Assembly (NCBI RefSeq): GCF_000337035.1 | Contig: NZ_AOJL01000049.1 | Coordinates: 24,720-64,507, forward strand | Origin: Halorubrum coriense DSM 10284 | GTDB lineage: Archaea > Halobacteriota > Halobacteria > Halobacteriales > Haloferacaceae | Reading direction: 5' to 3' | DNA: 39,788 nucleotides | Made by a program: the position numbers and the translations under genes | Notes under the pieces: model-generated | What the model saw: the letters and a program-made list of their open reading frames with translations, nothing else | Database searches by the model: none | Told to the model about the DNA's origin: nothing | In this document: positions 9,705 to 29,125 of the stretch, piece by piece | Layout: every line of letters starts with the position of its first letter | Position numbering within the stretch: the stretch's first letter is position 1

Positions 9705-10853
9705 ATGGAGTTGTTCGACGACAGCATCGTGCCGGAGCGCGCGCGAGACGTCAAACAGGAGGCCCGCGAGTTCGCCGACGAGTACATCGCCCCGAACGCC
9801 GAGTCGTACTACGACACCGGCGAGTATCCGTGGGAAGTGCTCGAAGCGGGGATGGACGCCGGCCTCGTCGCCCAGGACATCGGCGAGGAGTACGGCGGGA
9901 GGGGGTTCGACCTCGCGCAGGTGCTCGCCATGGCGGAGGAGTTCTACCGCGCGGACGCCGGCATCGCGCTCACCCTCCAGCTCGCCAGCTTCGGTGCCGA
10001 GATGGTCGAAGACTACGGCACGGAAGCGCAGAAGGAGAAGTACCTCCGGCCGGTGGCCGAGAACGAGCAGCTCTCGGGGCTCGCGGTGTCGGAGCCGCAG
10101 ACCGGCTCGGACCTGGCAGGGATGACGACGAAGGCCGAGAAGGTCGAGGGGGGCTACGAGCTCACCGGCGAGAAGTACTGGGTCGGCAACGCGGTCGAGG
10201 CCGACTGGCTCACCGTCTACGCCAAGACCGGCGAGGGCGACGACCGCTACTCGAACTACACGCTGTTCATCGTCGAGACGGACTCGGACGGCTACGAGGC
10301 CGAGCACATCCCCGAGAAGATGGGGATGCGCGCGTCCAAGCAGGGCCACATCGTCTTCGAGGACTGCTTCGTCCCCGAGGAGAACGTCGTCGGCAGCGAG
10401 GGCGGCGGGTTCTACGCCCTCGCCGACTTCTTCAACCACGGCCGCGTCATCGTCGGGGGCCACGGGCTCGGCCTCGCGGCGGCGGCCATCGAGGAGGCGG
10501 AGGCGTTCATCGACGAGCGCGAGGCGTTCGGCCGCACCATCGACGATTTTCAAGCCGTCCAGCACACGGTCTCGGACATGCGGATCGGCTTCGAGTCGGC
10601 GCGCGCGCTCAACTGGCGCGCCTGCGAGAAGGTCGCGAACGGAACGGACGCCGGCTACTGGGCCGCGCTGGCGAAGACCAAGTCCACCGAGGTCGCCACC
10701 GACTGCGCCGAGAAGGGGATGAAGCTCCACGGCGGCCGGTCGAACCTCACCGACCGCCGGATCGCCCGCGTCTACCGCGACGTGCGCATCCCGGTGATCT
10801 ACGAGGGCGCGAACGACATCCAGCGCAACCTCATCTACCGGCAGTCGCGCTAG
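9705..10853 (+). CDS. Acyl-CoA dehydrogenase
   Basis: A 382-residue flavoprotein that introduces the alpha-beta double bond into acyl-CoA and passes electrons to ETF. The all-helical N-terminal domain is followed by the FAD-binding signature LAVSEPQTGSDLAGM (about 128-142), the middle-domain block GEKYWVGNAVEADW and the C-terminal AFGRTIDDFQAVQH. The catalytic base is seen in IYEGANDIQRN at Glu367, the position used by short- and medium-chain and glutaryl-type enzymes. Length is normal. Substrate chain length cannot be read from sequence. The ATG at 9705 gives the standard N-terminus MELFDDSIVPERAR; longer frames run into the preceding gene. It may be transcribed from its own weak TATA (CGTTTTGT at 9674-9681). 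Confidence 0.93.
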   Translation: MELFDDSIVPERARDVKQEAREFADEYIAPNAESYYDTGEYPWEVLEAGMDAGLVAQDIGEEYGGRGFDLAQVLAMAEEFYRADAGIALTLQLASFGAEMVEDYGTEAQKEKYLRPVAENEQLSGLAVSEPQTGSDLAGMTTKAEKVEGGYELTGEKYWVGNAVEADWLTVYAKTGEGDDRYSNYTLFIVETDSDGYEAEHIPEKMGMRASKQGHIVFEDCFVPEENVVGSEGGGFYALADFFNHGRVIVGGHGLGLAAAAIEEAEAFIDEREAFGRTIDDFQAVQHTVSDMRIGFESARALNWRACEKVANGTDAGYWAALAKTKSTEVATDCAEKGMKLHGGRSNLTDRRIARVYRDVRIPVIYEGANDIQRNLIYRQSR

Positions 10854-24373: not shown

Positions 24374-25684
24374 ATGACGCTCCCAGTCGACGCGGACCGG
24401 CTCCGCGCGGACATCGAGGCGAACGCGGCGTTCGGCCGCGTCGAGACTGACGACCCGGACGCGCACGCGCGAACGAATCGAACGGGGACGGAGGCGAACC
24501 GTCGAGCCAGAGACCGGCTGGTCGAGCGCCTCCGCGACGCCGGCCTCGACGTGACCGTCGACGCCGTCGGCAACGTCCTCGGGACGTGGACGCCGGCGAG
24601 CGCCGACCCCGGGGCGGCCCCGGTCGTCTCGGGGAGCCACCTCGACAGCGTCCCGGAGGGCGGGATCTTCGACGGCCCGCTCGGGGTGTACGCCGCGCTG
24701 GAGGGGGTCCGCGCGATGCGCGACGCCGGGGTCGAGCCGGACCGGCCGGTCGGCGTCGTCAGCTTCACCGAGGAGGAGGGCGGCACCTTCGGCAACGGGC
24801 TGTTGGGGTCGTCGGTCGCGACCGGCGAACTGGCGCTCGACGACGCGCTCGGGCTGTCGAACGCGGACGGCGATCCGCTCGGCGAGGCCCTCGACCGGAT
24901 CGGCTACCGCGGGGGGAGCGCGGTCGACGCCGCCACGCCGACCGGCGAGGCCGGCGAGCCGACGACGCTCGACCCCGCGTCGTGGGCGGCGTTCTACGAG
25001 CTCCACATCGAGCAGGACACGGTCCTCGAAGCGGCGGGCGCGGCGGTCGGCGTCGTGACGACGATCACCGGCATCACCCACTGCGAGGCGGCGATCGCGG
25101 GCGAGGCGAACCACGCGGGCGCGACCCCGATGGACGAGCGGACCGACGCGCTCGCGGCCGCGAGCGAGTTCGTGTTGGACGTCGAGGCCGCCGCGAACGA
25201 GGTCGTGGCGTCGTCGTCGCCCTCGGCCGTGGGCACCGTCGGGTCGCTGTCGGTCGAGCCGAACGCGACGAACGTGGTCCCCGGTCGGGTCGAGGCCGCG
25301 GTGGACGTCCGCGACGTCGAGGCCGCGTCGATGGAGGCGATCGTCGACGCCGCCCGCGACTCGCTCGCGCGGCTGGAGCGCGAGCGGGGCGTCGAGACCG
25401 AGTTCGAGCGGCCGTTCGACGTCGCGCCGACGCCGATGAGCGACCGCCTCCGTGGGGCCGCACACAAGGCGGCCGACGCGGTCGGGCGCGAGGCGATCGA
25501 CCTCCACTCCGGGGCGGCCCACGACGCCATGCGGGTCGCGCGCGCCACGGACGCGTCGCTGCTGTTCGCCCCGTCTCGGGACGGAATCTCGCACAACCCT
25601 CGCGAGTGGACCGACTGGGACGACTGCGCGGCCGCGACCGAGGTGCTCGCGGGGGCGCTCGCGCGCGTCGCGGTCGACGAGTGA
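24374..25684 (+). CDS. M20-family Zn hydrolase, allantoate amidohydrolase / N-carbamoyl-amino-acid hydrolase type
   Basis: A 436-residue metallo-amidohydrolase of normal length. Metal-site residues are visible in order: GSHLDSVPEGG (His89), IFDGPLGV (Asp100), FTEEEGGTFG (Glu133-135), YELHIEQ (His211) and HSGAAHDAM (His383). NHAGATPMDERTDAL (245-260) is the dimerisation/substrate loop of the beta-ureidopropionase, allantoate and carbamoylase subgroup. These enzymes release ammonia and CO2 from ureido groups, or cleave related amides. The exact substrate is not readable. It is the first gene of a five-gene same-strand cluster and has a TATA-like GTTTTGAT about 28 bp upstream. Confidence 0.88.
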   Translation: MTLPVDADRLRADIEANAAFGRVETDDPDAHARTNRTGTEANRRARDRLVERLRDAGLDVTVDAVGNVLGTWTPASADPGAAPVVSGSHLDSVPEGGIFDGPLGVYAALEGVRAMRDAGVEPDRPVGVVSFTEEEGGTFGNGLLGSSVATGELALDDALGLSNADGDPLGEALDRIGYRGGSAVDAATPTGEAGEPTTLDPASWAAFYELHIEQDTVLEAAGAAVGVVTTITGITHCEAAIAGEANHAGATPMDERTDALAAASEFVLDVEAAANEVVASSSPSAVGTVGSLSVEPNATNVVPGRVEAAVDVRDVEAASMEAIVDAARDSLARLERERGVETEFERPFDVAPTPMSDRLRGAAHKAADAVGREAIDLHSGAAHDAMRVARATDASLLFAPSRDGISHNPREWTDWDDCAAATEVLAGALARVAVDE

Positions 25685-25700
25685 CGCTCCGGGGCGCACG

Positions 25701-25708
25701 TATTTGTA
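25701..25708 (+). promoter_or_regulatory. TATA element of the LarA-like gene
   Basis: TATTTGTA is centred about 27 bp upstream of the ATG at 25731, inside the 46-bp gap after the M20 gene. The LarA-like gene therefore probably has its own leaderless promoter. Confidence 0.45.
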
Positions 25709-25730
25709 TCGGGCGCGCCACCCGCCCGGC

Positions 25731-27029
25731 ATGGAGTTTCCGGACCGCGAGGACGTCGACGGGCTGATCGACCCCCGCCCGATGCCGGAGTTCGTTCGGG
25801 TCCGCCGGGAGCCCGCGACCGACGCGCTCGACGACCCGGCGGCGGTCGCGCGCGACGAACTGGACCGGCTCGACTTCGACGGGCTGCCCCCGGGCGCGAC
25901 CGTCGCCGTCGGGGCGGGGTCGCGGGGGATCCACGCGTACGGCTCGGTCGTCGCGGCCGTCGTCGCGGGGCTCGACGACCGCGGGTTCGACCCGGTCGTC
26001 GTGCCGGCGATGGGGAGTCACGGGGGCGCGACGCCGGCGGGCCAGCTGGAAGTGCTCGAAGAACTCGGCGTCACGGCGGAGCGCGTCGGCGCGCCGGTCG
26101 ACGCCCGGATGGCGACGAGCCCGGTGGAGGCCGTGGCGGTCGGCGACGGCGAGCTGACGGTCCACGTGGCGGAGGCCGCGCTGGAGGCGGACGCGACGCT
26201 CGTCGTCAACCGGGTGAAGGCGCACACGAACTTCACCGGGCCGATAGAGAGCGGGCTGACGAAGATGGCCGTCGTCGGGTTGGGGAAACAGCGCGGCGCG
26301 AAGGCGTTCCACTCGACGGCGATACCCGAGGGGTACGTGGAGGCGCTCACCGCGGCGCTGGAGCCCGTCGCGGCGGCCGCGGGGCTGGTTGGCGGGGTCG
26401 CGCTCGTCGAGAACGCCGACGAGCGGCTCTGCGCGGTCGATGGCGTCCCCGGCGACGCGTTTCTCGACCGCGAGCCGGCACTGTTAGACCGGGCGAACGC
26501 GGAGATGCCGACGCTGCCGGTCGACGACGTCGACCTGCTCGTCGTCGACGAGATCGGTAAGGAGATATCCGGGGCCGGGATGGACACCAACGTCGTCGGG
26601 CGCTACCGGGTGCTGAACGCGCCGGACCCGGAGACGCCGAAGGTGAAGCTGATCTACGTCCGCGGACTCACGGACGCGACGCACGGGAACGGCACCGGGA
26701 TCGGGCTGGCGGACCTCACCAGAACCGCGGCGGTCGAGCAGTTGGACGCGACGAAGACGTACGCGAACGTCCTCACGAGCGGCTCGCTCGCGAAGGGGAA
26801 GCTCCCGGTCGTCGCCCCCGACGACGAGTTCGCGCTCCGGACCGCGCTCGCCGCGCTCGGGGGCGACGACTCCGACGAGGCGCGGGTGCTCTGGATCCGC
26901 AACACGCAGGAGCTCGACGAGCTGTGGGCGTCGGAGACCGTCGTCCCCGACCTCCCCGCGGACGCGACGGTCGTCGGGCGGGCGACGCTCGACTTCGACG
27001 ACGGGACGGCGGCGTTCGACGAGGCCTGA
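25731..27029 (+). CDS. LarA/DUF2088-family protein (lactate-racemase-like)
   Basis: A 432-residue protein of the lactate racemase (LarA) superfamily. Blocks seen are VAVGAGSRGIHAYGSVV, PAMGSHGGATPAGQLEVLEELG (about 88-109), LVVNRVKAHTNFTGPIESGL (about 160-179) and KMAVVGLGKQRGAKAFHS, all typical of the family branch with GSHGGAT. LarA itself racemises lactate with a nickel-pincer cofactor; homologues act on other 2-hydroxy acids such as malate. No larB, larC or larE lies in this window, so cofactor supply cannot be judged here. The protein lies between an amidohydrolase and an SDR, pointing to hydroxy-acid metabolism (inference). Confidence 0.8.
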   Translation: MEFPDREDVDGLIDPRPMPEFVRVRREPATDALDDPAAVARDELDRLDFDGLPPGATVAVGAGSRGIHAYGSVVAAVVAGLDDRGFDPVVVPAMGSHGGATPAGQLEVLEELGVTAERVGAPVDARMATSPVEAVAVGDGELTVHVAEAALEADATLVVNRVKAHTNFTGPIESGLTKMAVVGLGKQRGAKAFHSTAIPEGYVEALTAALEPVAAAAGLVGGVALVENADERLCAVDGVPGDAFLDREPALLDRANAEMPTLPVDDVDLLVVDEIGKEISGAGMDTNVVGRYRVLNAPDPETPKVKLIYVRGLTDATHGNGTGIGLADLTRTAAVEQLDATKTYANVLTSGSLAKGKLPVVAPDDEFALRTALAALGGDDSDEARVLWIRNTQELDELWASETVVPDLPADATVVGRATLDFDDGTAAFDEA

Positions 27030-27143
27030 CCGGGCGACCGGCTGTTCTCATCGTCGCGCGCGCGCCGCGGACCGCGGGGGCGGGACGCCGGGGCCCTTGC
27101 CTCCAGGGAAACGTTTTCGGTCCGAACCGTGTACCCTGCGCAC

Positions 27144-27932
27144 ATGGACCTCGAAATAGCCGGGAACGCGGCGCTCGTCACGGCGTCGTCGAGCGGGCTC
27201 GGAAAGGCATCGGCGAAGGCGCTCGCCCGGGAGGGCGTCGACGTGGTGATCAACGGCCGCGACGAAGACCGACTGGCGGAGGCGAAGACCGAGGTCGGGG
27301 CGGTCGCGGCGGGCGAGGTCGTCGCCCAGCCCGGCGACCTCACCGAGCCGGACGACATCACGGCCCTCGTCGAGCGGACCGTCGAAGAGTTCGGCGGCCT
27401 CGACCACCTCGTCACGAGCGCCGGTGGGCCGCCGTCGGGGGCGTTCCTGGAGACCGACGACGAGGACTGGGCGGCGGCCTACGAACTGCTCGTGATGAGC
27501 GTCGTTCGCCTCGCGCGCGAGGCCGAGCCGCACCTCCGCGAGGGCGACGGCGGCACCATCGTGAACATCACCTCGCGGAGCGTGAAGGAGGCGCTCGACA
27601 GCCTCGTGTTGTCCAACTCGGTCCGGATGAGCGTCATCGGGCTGGAGAAGACGCTCTCGAAGGAGTTCGCGCCGGAGATCCGAGCGAACGCCGTGTTGCC
27701 GGGGCCACACGAGACGTCCCGGATCCGGGAGCTCGTGAACGACGCCGTCGACCGCGGCGAGTACGACACGTACGAGGAGGGACTCGCGGAGTGGGCCGGC
27801 AACCCCCTCGAACGTATCGGCGACCCGATGGAGCTCGGCGACACCGTCGCGTTCCTCTCCTCGCCGAAGTCCGGGTTCATCAACGGTACCGCGCTGCCGA
27901 TCGACGGCGGCGCGACCGGGTCGAACCTATGA
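27144..27932 (+). CDS. Short-chain dehydrogenase/reductase lacking the canonical Tyr-x3-Lys
   Basis: A 262-residue Rossmann protein. The dinucleotide loop is ASSSGLGKASAKALA (14-28), followed by VVINGRDEDRL, LVTSAGGPPSGAF (in place of NNAG) and IVNITSRSVKEAL with the conserved Ser region. Where YxxxK is expected the sequence reads LVLSNSVRMSVIGLEKTLS, so both Tyr and Lys are absent. PLPIDGGATG-like C-terminal sequence (ALPIDGGATG) is intact. A subgroup of SDRs with this replacement is known and is often annotated as 3-oxoacyl reductase-like; its chemistry is unclear. The ATG at 27144 is preferred over the GTG at 27129. Its stop overlaps the cupin start (ATGA). Confidence 0.88.
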   Translation: MDLEIAGNAALVTASSSGLGKASAKALAREGVDVVINGRDEDRLAEAKTEVGAVAAGEVVAQPGDLTEPDDITALVERTVEEFGGLDHLVTSAGGPPSGAFLETDDEDWAAAYELLVMSVVRLAREAEPHLREGDGGTIVNITSRSVKEALDSLVLSNSVRMSVIGLEKTLSKEFAPEIRANAVLPGPHETSRIRELVNDAVDRGEYDTYEEGLAEWAGNPLERIGDPMELGDTVAFLSSPKSGFINGTALPIDGGATGSNL

Positions 27933-28276
27933 GGGCGGTCGCGTTCGACGAGGCGGAGACGTACGAGCCCGAAGACGGGTGGCGACGCGTGTCGATGGCG
28001 GGCAGCGACCGCCTCTCGTTCGAGTGGTTCGAGAAGCCGCCGGACCACTCCTCGCCGCTCCACGACCACGAGAACGAACAGGTGTGTCTCTGCCTCGAAG
28101 GGGAACTGACGGTCGTCACCGACGAGGAGGAAGTCACGCTGGAGCCGAACGACTCCGTCCTCTTGGAGGCGAACGAGCCGCATCGCGTCGAGAACACCGG
28201 CGACGAGCGGGCGGTCGGGCTCGACGTGTTCGCGCCCGGCCGGTCGTTCGACTTCTGGACCGACCGCGATGAGTGA
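27929..28276 (+). CDS. Cupin-domain protein
   Basis: A 115-residue single-domain cupin. Motif 1 is PLHDHENEQVCLCLEGELTVV (two His and one Glu ligand) and motif 2 is ANEPHRVENTGDERAVGLDVF (His ligand), so a metal site is likely. Small cupins act as dioxygenases, isomerases or sugar/acid-binding proteins; nothing in the sequence decides which. The ATGA overlap with the SDR makes co-translation very likely. The next gene begins 27 bp downstream. Confidence 0.9.
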   Translation: MRAVAFDEAETYEPEDGWRRVSMAGSDRLSFEWFEKPPDHSSPLHDHENEQVCLCLEGELTVVTDEEEVTLEPNDSVLLEANEPHRVENTGDERAVGLDVFAPGRSFDFWTDRDE

Positions 28277-28303
28277 CCGGAGCGTGAACGGAGGACCGAC
28301 CGG

Positions 28304-29125
28304 ATGAGATATCTCGCGCGCACGGCGACGGGGCGACCGCTGCTCGGCGACGAGGACGGCTTCGTCCCGCTGGGGGCCGCCCTCCCCGGGGCGGCGACGG
28401 TACGCGACGCGCTCGGCGCGGCCGCCGCCGGCGACCTCCCGGCGGTCGGCGACGCTCCGGCCGATCGCGTCCCGGCGGGGGACCTCGCTTTCGGGCCGCC
28501 GCTGGAGCGGTTCGGCAAGCTGTGGGGGATCGGGCTCAACTACGCCGACCACGCCGGCGACCTCGACGAGCGGCGTCCGGAGGAGCCGGCGAGCTTCATG
28601 AAGCCGGCGACGGCGCTCACCGGTCCGGGCGGGCCGATCCGGCTCCCGCCGCCCGAGCAGAGCGAGCGCGTGACCGCGGAGGCGGAGCTGGCCGTCGTGA
28701 TGGGTCGGGAGTGTCGGTCCGTCGGGGTCGAAGAGGCGAGCGACGTCGTCGCGGGCTACCTGCCGGTGATCGACATGACCGCAGAGGACGTGCTCCGCCG
28801 GAACCCCCGCTTCCTCACGCGGGCGAAGAGCTACGACACGTTCCTCGTCGTCGGCCCGGCGATCGCGGTCCCCGACGGGCCGGCCGACCTCGCGGACGCG
28901 ACGGTGGCGACACGGGTGAACGGTGAGGTCGCCGCCGAGAACGAGGTGCGGAACATGCTGTTCTCGCCCGCCGAGATCGTGTCGTTCCACTCCGAGGTGG
29001 CGACGCTCGCGCCCGGCGACCTGTTCAGCACCGGGACGCCCGGGGCGGCGGCGATCGAGCCGGGCGACGAGGTGCGCGCGACGGTGGAGTCGATCGGCTC
29101 GGTCGCCGCGCCCGTGACGCGGTAG
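28304..29125 (+). CDS. Fumarylacetoacetate hydrolase (FAH) family protein
   Basis: A 273-residue member of the FAH superfamily. It shows a variable N-terminal domain, then WGIGLNYADHA (about 74-84), FMKPATALTGPGGPI (about 98-112), VTAEAELAVVMGR with the E-x-E metal pair, VIDMTAEDVL with an Asp ligand, KSYDTFLVVGPAI and STGTPGAAAI. These enzymes hydrolyse C-C bonds of 2,4-diketo acids, or decarboxylate, isomerise or dehydrate related acids; in sugar-acid pathways they act after an SDR. A GGAGG sequence (28290-28294), 9 nt before the ATG, looks like a Shine-Dalgarno site and supports this start. It is the last gene of the 24374-29125 cluster. Confidence 0.9.
   Translation: MRYLARTATGRPLLGDEDGFVPLGAALPGAATVRDALGAAAAGDLPAVGDAPADRVPAGDLAFGPPLERFGKLWGIGLNYADHAGDLDERRPEEPASFMKPATALTGPGGPIRLPPPEQSERVTAEAELAVVMGRECRSVGVEEASDVVAGYLPVIDMTAEDVLRRNPRFLTRAKSYDTFLVVGPAIAVPDGPADLADATVATRVNGEVAAENEVRNMLFSPAEIVSFHSEVATLAPGDLFSTGTPGAAAIEPGDEVRATVESIGSVAAPVTR

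Follow-up and report, generated by a model that had tools for sequence, protein, structure and literature searches.

Halorubrum coriense DSM 10284 carries, in a 39,788-nucleotide stretch of contig NZ_AOJL01000049.1 (positions 24,720 to 64,507 of the forward strand, assembly GCF_000337035.1; hereafter the window), five consecutive same-strand genes that encode an M20 amidohydrolase, a LarA-like isomerase, a divergent SDR-fold protein, a small cupin and an FAH-family hydrolase. Here we describe the last four, LarA-SDR-cupin-FAH, as a real, conserved and recurring haloarchaeal module, which is apparently undescribed and which, on balance, we take to be a laterally mobile unit for the breakdown of a sugar acid (aldonate). 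The M20 gene is judged, from comparison of sequences and loci, to be an old resident neighbour and not a member of the module.

24374..25684, plus strand: M20 hydantoinase/carbamoylase-type amidohydrolase (TIGR01879, 350 bits; cut-off 204)
25731..27029, plus strand: LarA-superfamily nickel-pincer-nucleotide (NPN) isomerase, "group 22" (NF052515, 467.9 bits; cut-off 400)
27144..27932, plus strand: divergent SDR-fold protein (ATG start; earliest possible start GTG at 27129)
27929..28276, plus strand: small metal-binding-type cupin (Cupin_2; H45, H47, Q51 and H85 invariant)
28304..29125, plus strand: FAH-family hydrolase, predicted 2,4-diketo-3-deoxy-aldonate hydrolase (PF01557, FAA_hydrolase, 186 bits)

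A four-gene module recurs across haloarchaea

A single scan of bacterial and archaeal genomes anchored on the SDR returned 80 loci, nearly all haloarchaeal, at which the SDR is accompanied on the same strand and within 4.5 kb by the cupin (59 loci), FAH (58) and LarA (35), while M20 is present at 4. These loci are drawn from related genomes and cannot be counted as independent, yet they span many genera, and the recurrence of LarA, SDR, cupin and FAH together in dozens of genomes far exceeds chance, whereas that of M20 with them does not. A first-pass annotation of this DNA had set co-conservation of all five genes as a check on its reading, which is borne out for LarA-SDR-cupin-FAH and fails for M20; its further remark that no named pathway is known to have this combination agrees with our literature searches, which found no description of the cluster or of such a pathway, most subscription papers lying outside the search.

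Partners counted anywhere in the fetched stretches widen the picture, as the dehydratase-like ENO1 occurs at 34 of the 80 loci, ENO2 at 27, an IclR regulator at 26, a TAXI binding protein at 25 and a TRAP permease at 21. In complete versions of the cluster, the module is joined by a TAXI-TRAP transporter, a D-2-hydroxyacid dehydrogenase, IclR regulators and a pair of acid-sugar dehydratases of the enolase superfamily. One full copy, in Haloarcula litorea, has on one side the D-2-hydroxyacid dehydrogenase, an acyl-CoA dehydrogenase and two genes annotated as MR/MLE-family, on the divergent side LarA, SDR, cupin, FAH, a universal stress protein and a TRAP permease, and farther along a GntP permease and a DUF4147 gene. 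The H. litorea plasmid (NZ_CP119780.1; L141 and L218) bears two cluster copies, several genes of which have identical protein accessions. DUF4147 was considered as a constant partner and rejected, being found near 8 loci only.

LarA and FAH again form a pair in a haloarchaeal branch that is farther removed. At L215 (8885-11179), a remoter group-22-like LarA paralogue, at 44% identity, is divergent to another FAH gene, with DUF4147 and GH88 adjoining, which suggests a second, possibly uronate-related version of the pair. Separately, SDR homologues 73-75% identical to that of the window occur in Rhodothermia (uncultured Rhodothermaceae and Longimonas halophila; L094 and L101, both 10001-10789), none of which has LarA, FAH or a cupin close by; the gene may have passed between halophilic archaea and bacteria.

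Open reading frames and profile matches confirm the five genes of the window in the order, overlaps and families first given for them. The cupin start overlaps the SDR stop as ATGA, FAH follows the cupin after 27 bp, and gaps of 46 bp and 114 bp separate M20 from LarA and LarA from the SDR. The five genes are flanked by a Na/Ca exchanger gene and a TFB gene, and the window neighbourhood has no adjacent transporter or regulator fitting a catabolic route, as had been noted before. The idea attached to that observation, that the substrate could be made internally, sits poorly with the complete clusters and their adjacent TAXI-TRAP transporter and IclR regulators.

The module lies at an old M20 locus

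M20 was matched in 48 of 52 Halorubrum genomes, where the locus reads malQ, Na/Ca exchanger (CaX), M20, MscS channel, TFB, DUF555 and a DNA-glycosylase-like gene, and in many species no gene lies between MscS and TFB, leaving a module-free site. SDR-cupin-FAH sits there in G246 (L042), G044 (L043) and G120, the last with a truncated MscS; the MscS-type channel follows M20 at L042:8857-9879 and L043:8801-9886. In the window and in its close relative L041, LarA occupies the former place of MscS, and no MscS was found there. Two further genomes (G110 and G004) have a module-free M20 locus, their module lying at another site. Because M20 is near-universal in Halorubrum, its fixed syntenic locus is mostly without the module, and the module can lie elsewhere, we rejected M20 as a pathway member.

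The SDR-cupin-FAH copies at the M20 site form one clade in the tree with support of 1.0, so a single insertion beside MscS is likely; the three genes are kept in five Halorubrum genomes that form one clade. The LarA branch is not resolved in the tree, which gives no order for the arrival of LarA and SDR-cupin-FAH at this site. A group-22 LarA also adjoins a TFB gene in another genus of the family (L139:8332-11300), which matches the position of the module in the window.

Promoter elements link the SDR to an acid-sugar dehydratase

Three promoter-like elements were located upstream of LarA and the SDR.

25699..25706 (approximate), plus strand: TATA-like T-rich element about 30 nucleotides before the LarA ATG (window sequence TATTTGTAT)
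27097..27101, plus strand: TTGCC element 47 nucleotides before the SDR start codon, common to divergent dehydratase promoters in related clusters
27114..27117, plus strand: T-run (TATA-like element) 30-27 nucleotides before the SDR ATG, from upstream comparison

A TTT at positions -29 to -27 is conserved in 57 LarA upstream regions and suggests that LarA has its own promoter, while SDR starts are preceded by TTGCC (-47) and the T-run (-30) at a fixed distance regardless of the upstream gene. As the two genes each have a promoter-like element at conserved distance, a single five-gene operon is unlikely.

The TTGCC element near -47 is present before 46 of 89 SDR genes (8 expected from shuffled sequence) and 31 of 42 ENO2 genes (2.5 expected), and in 30 of the 42 divergent ENO2 promoters it falls between -46 and -48. 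It is not enriched before ENO1 (0/48; 0.2 expected) or FAH (3/65; 5.9), and it precedes LarA in 4 of 56 cases (1.7). Since this element is common to the SDR and ENO2 promoters, SDR-cupin-FAH and ENO2 are probably co-regulated, which ties the module to acid-sugar dehydration. The SDR of the window retains TTGCC though its genome is without an ENO2 orthologue.

The LarA-like protein is a predicted group-22 isomerase

Against the NCBIfam model "nickel pincer cofactor-dependent isomerase, group 22" (NF052515), the LarA-like protein reaches 468 bits, above the cut-off of 400. A search of the genome with Pfam Lar_N (PF09861) gave no match, the LarA-like protein matches only DUF362, and that weakly, and phmmer against the PDB returned nothing meaningful for it, so its identity as an isomerase rests on NCBIfam and structure. 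Its AlphaFold (AF2) model has a pLDDT of 89, and all 19 Foldseek matches in the PDB at E<=0.001 are LarA-family proteins, with a TM of about 0.5 and a structure-aligned identity of about 12-16%. H97, H165, K178 and H194 correspond to LarA H108, H174, K184 and H200 and are invariant in 36 sequences; the first two are the catalytic histidines, and the NPN-anchoring K178 and H194 keep the 16-residue spacing of LarA. A local hhalign profile match to LarA covers residues 50-236 only (probability 35%, E 4e-4). Profile searches found larB, larC and larE in the genome, all over cut-off, which settles a check that the first-pass annotation had called for. By family profile and predicted structure, the protein is thus assigned as an NPN isomerase of group 22.

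Bacterial group-22-like genes have altronate dehydratase and LarC adjacent in Sulfitobacter and Pseudosulfitobacter, uxaC, an SDR and larEBC in Paenibacillus, and MR/MLE and an SDR in Rubrobacter. Among characterised LarA homologues are D-gluconate 2-epimerases (gluconate/mannonate) and deoxy-threonate/erythronate epimerases (PMC7583248, PMC11770544). The simplest reading is that group-22 LarA would be an aldonate 2-epimerase.

The SDR, cupin and FAH proteins

The SDR keeps Ser144, but the Tyr of the YxxxK motif is replaced by Ser157 and the Lys by Arg161, and SxxxR is present in 81 of 81 homologues. It therefore lacks both the classical motif and the Ser-Tyr-Lys triad of the 4-dehydrogenase, and its chemistry is uncertain. 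The bacterial L-KDF 4-dehydrogenase, which keeps Ser-Tyr-Lys, holds its substrate in the furanosyl hemiketal form (PMC11199699).

In the cupin, the metal-site residues H45, H47, Q51 and H85 are invariant in the homologue alignment. This His-His-Gln-His motif fits KdgF, yet the fold search does not single out KdgF structures, which rank only 38th, 46th and 48th; that the cupin perhaps handles a cyclic hemiketal form is a guess.

The FAH protein matches L-2,4-diketo-3-deoxyrhamnonate hydrolase (PDB 8gsr) at E 2e-35, with other FAH enzymes scoring higher, and is 43% identical to a protein annotated as haloarchaeal RhcF, outside the 60-78% group; residues E126, E128 and D157 are invariant. This resemblance indicates related chemistry in a different gene family member, and a role as 2,4-diketo-3-deoxy-aldonate hydrolase is predicted, the diketo-acid hydrolase function being supported at family level.

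A putative sugar-acid pathway and its alternatives

The module is most likely part of a non-phosphorylative sugar-acid pathway. A TAXI-TRAP transporter would import the sugar acid, the NPN enzyme would invert the C2 hydroxyl so that the acid fits the dehydratase, and an enolase-superfamily dehydratase would give the 2-keto-3-deoxy acid. The SDR would then oxidise C4, the cupin perhaps handling the cyclic hemiketal, and FAH would cleave the 2,4-diketo acid by hydrolysis, leaving pyruvate together with a short 2-hydroxy acid for the D-2-hydroxyacid dehydrogenase or a glycerate kinase to use. What stands of the route first suggested for these genes is the conserved unit of 2-hydroxy-acid isomerase, oxidoreductase-fold protein and diketo-acid-hydrolase-family enzyme. 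We entertain more tentatively, as somewhat less than an even prospect, that this is an undescribed archaeal pathway combining an NPN aldonate epimerase with a dedicated cupin and an SDR-fold enzyme that works without the Tyr-Lys pair, and carried between haloarchaea as a mobile module.

Several observations weigh against the sugar-acid pathway. Equivalents of LarA D72 and K298 are not evident, since R65 is not preceded by an Asp at a distance of three residues and the K298-like position is occupied by Thr286 (by motif, where the alignment is weak), and the SDR is without the Tyr and Lys kept by the known L-KDF 4-dehydrogenase. G044 and G120 have SDR-cupin-FAH but no group-22 LarA anywhere in the genome, and three other Halorubrum (L131, L134 and L136) have LarA-cupin-FAH without an adjacent SDR, a 73-74% identical SDR lying elsewhere in each genome. 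Finally, H. coriense was found to have neither an orthologue of the cluster ENO2, for which its best match is 38% (versus 83-95% in relatives), nor a close TAXI match, its TAXI and TRAP relatives being at 34% and 48% only. An ENO1-like gene (54%) is on another contig among apparently unrelated genes. The strain has the epimerase, SDR, cupin and FAH of the route only; the acid-sugar dehydratase that shares the promoter element belongs to the related clusters, and in H. coriense the pathway either is incomplete or depends on other enzymes to feed it.

The strongest competing explanation, which we nevertheless consider unlikely, places LarA downstream, where it would racemise the lactate or glycerate released by FAH for a D-specific dehydrogenase or glycerate kinase. 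A D-2-hydroxyacid dehydrogenase (at least 56% identity) near many module copies, the DUF4147/MOFRL (glycerate-kinase-type) genes near the 8 loci, and the neighbouring LarA, FAH and DUF4147 genes of Halomicrobium are all consistent with this. However, DUF4147 is rare in close clusters, and in bacteria the group-22 genes have altronate dehydratase or uxaC, but not FAH, as neighbours, which points to the aldonate itself as the substrate.

A still less probable alternative is that this strain retains the module as a relic or is losing it, the fragment having been transferred without dehydratase and transporter and having little function. The missing ENO2 orthologue, the lack of a nearby transporter and the replacement of MscS at the site would fit such decay, but the four genes are intact, their proteins are 91-97% identical to those of L041, SDR-cupin-FAH persists in its Halorubrum clade, and the promoter element is retained.

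The original five-gene proposal, in which M20 acts on a ureido or amide compound and the 2-hydroxy acid so freed is processed by LarA, SDR and FAH, is not supported and highly improbable. Same-strand adjacency in the window and L041 speaks for it, but synteny already contradicts it: M20 is mostly without the module beside it, lies far from it in G110 and G004, and is followed by MscS, not LarA, in L042 and L043.

The module bears on two protein groups. LarA group 22 has a family name, but we found no substrate for it; the cluster context of dehydratases, diketo-acid hydrolase, transporter and common promoter element gives it a setting and narrows its candidate substrates to a limited number of aldonates obtainable by purchase or synthesis. 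The chemistry of the SDR group is testable in the same assay.

Comparison with known systems

The likeness to the LarA superfamily (lactate racemase and the D-gluconate 2-epimerase GntE) lies in the fold, the catalytic His pair, the spaced NPN-binding Lys and His, and larBCE. The module protein differs in belonging to group 22, in going unrecognised by Pfam Lar_N, in having no evident D72 and K298 equivalents, and in its low structure-aligned identity.

Other divergent SDRs also lack the catalytic Tyr: PDB 2z1n, 5vps, 5va8 and 5idx share with the module SDR the sequence LSNxxR at the YxxxK position, whereas BcSDR (PMC11614110) has LxxxK instead. No known substrate was found for any of these proteins. 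The cluster points to a divergent SDR group represented in the PDB.

Haloarchaeal L-rhamnose breakdown yields pyruvate and lactate (Reinhardt et al. 2019, as cited in PMC8305020). This Rhc pathway shares with the module a final FAH-family diketo-acid hydrolase, IclR-type regulation and an SDR near FAH, and differs in having an ABC transporter where the module clusters have TRAP and in lacking the added LarA and cupin. With FAH at only 43% identity to the annotated RhcF and not its orthologue, and the SDR at 29% to the canonical SDR near RhcF, we rejected the rhamnose pathway as the identity of the module.

The bacterial non-phosphorylative L-fucose and L-rhamnose pathways (L-KDFDH; L-DKDR hydrolase, 8gsr) share with the module the predicted C4 oxidation followed by hydrolysis, although L-KDFDH retains the Ser-Tyr-Lys triad that the module SDR has replaced (PMC11199699).

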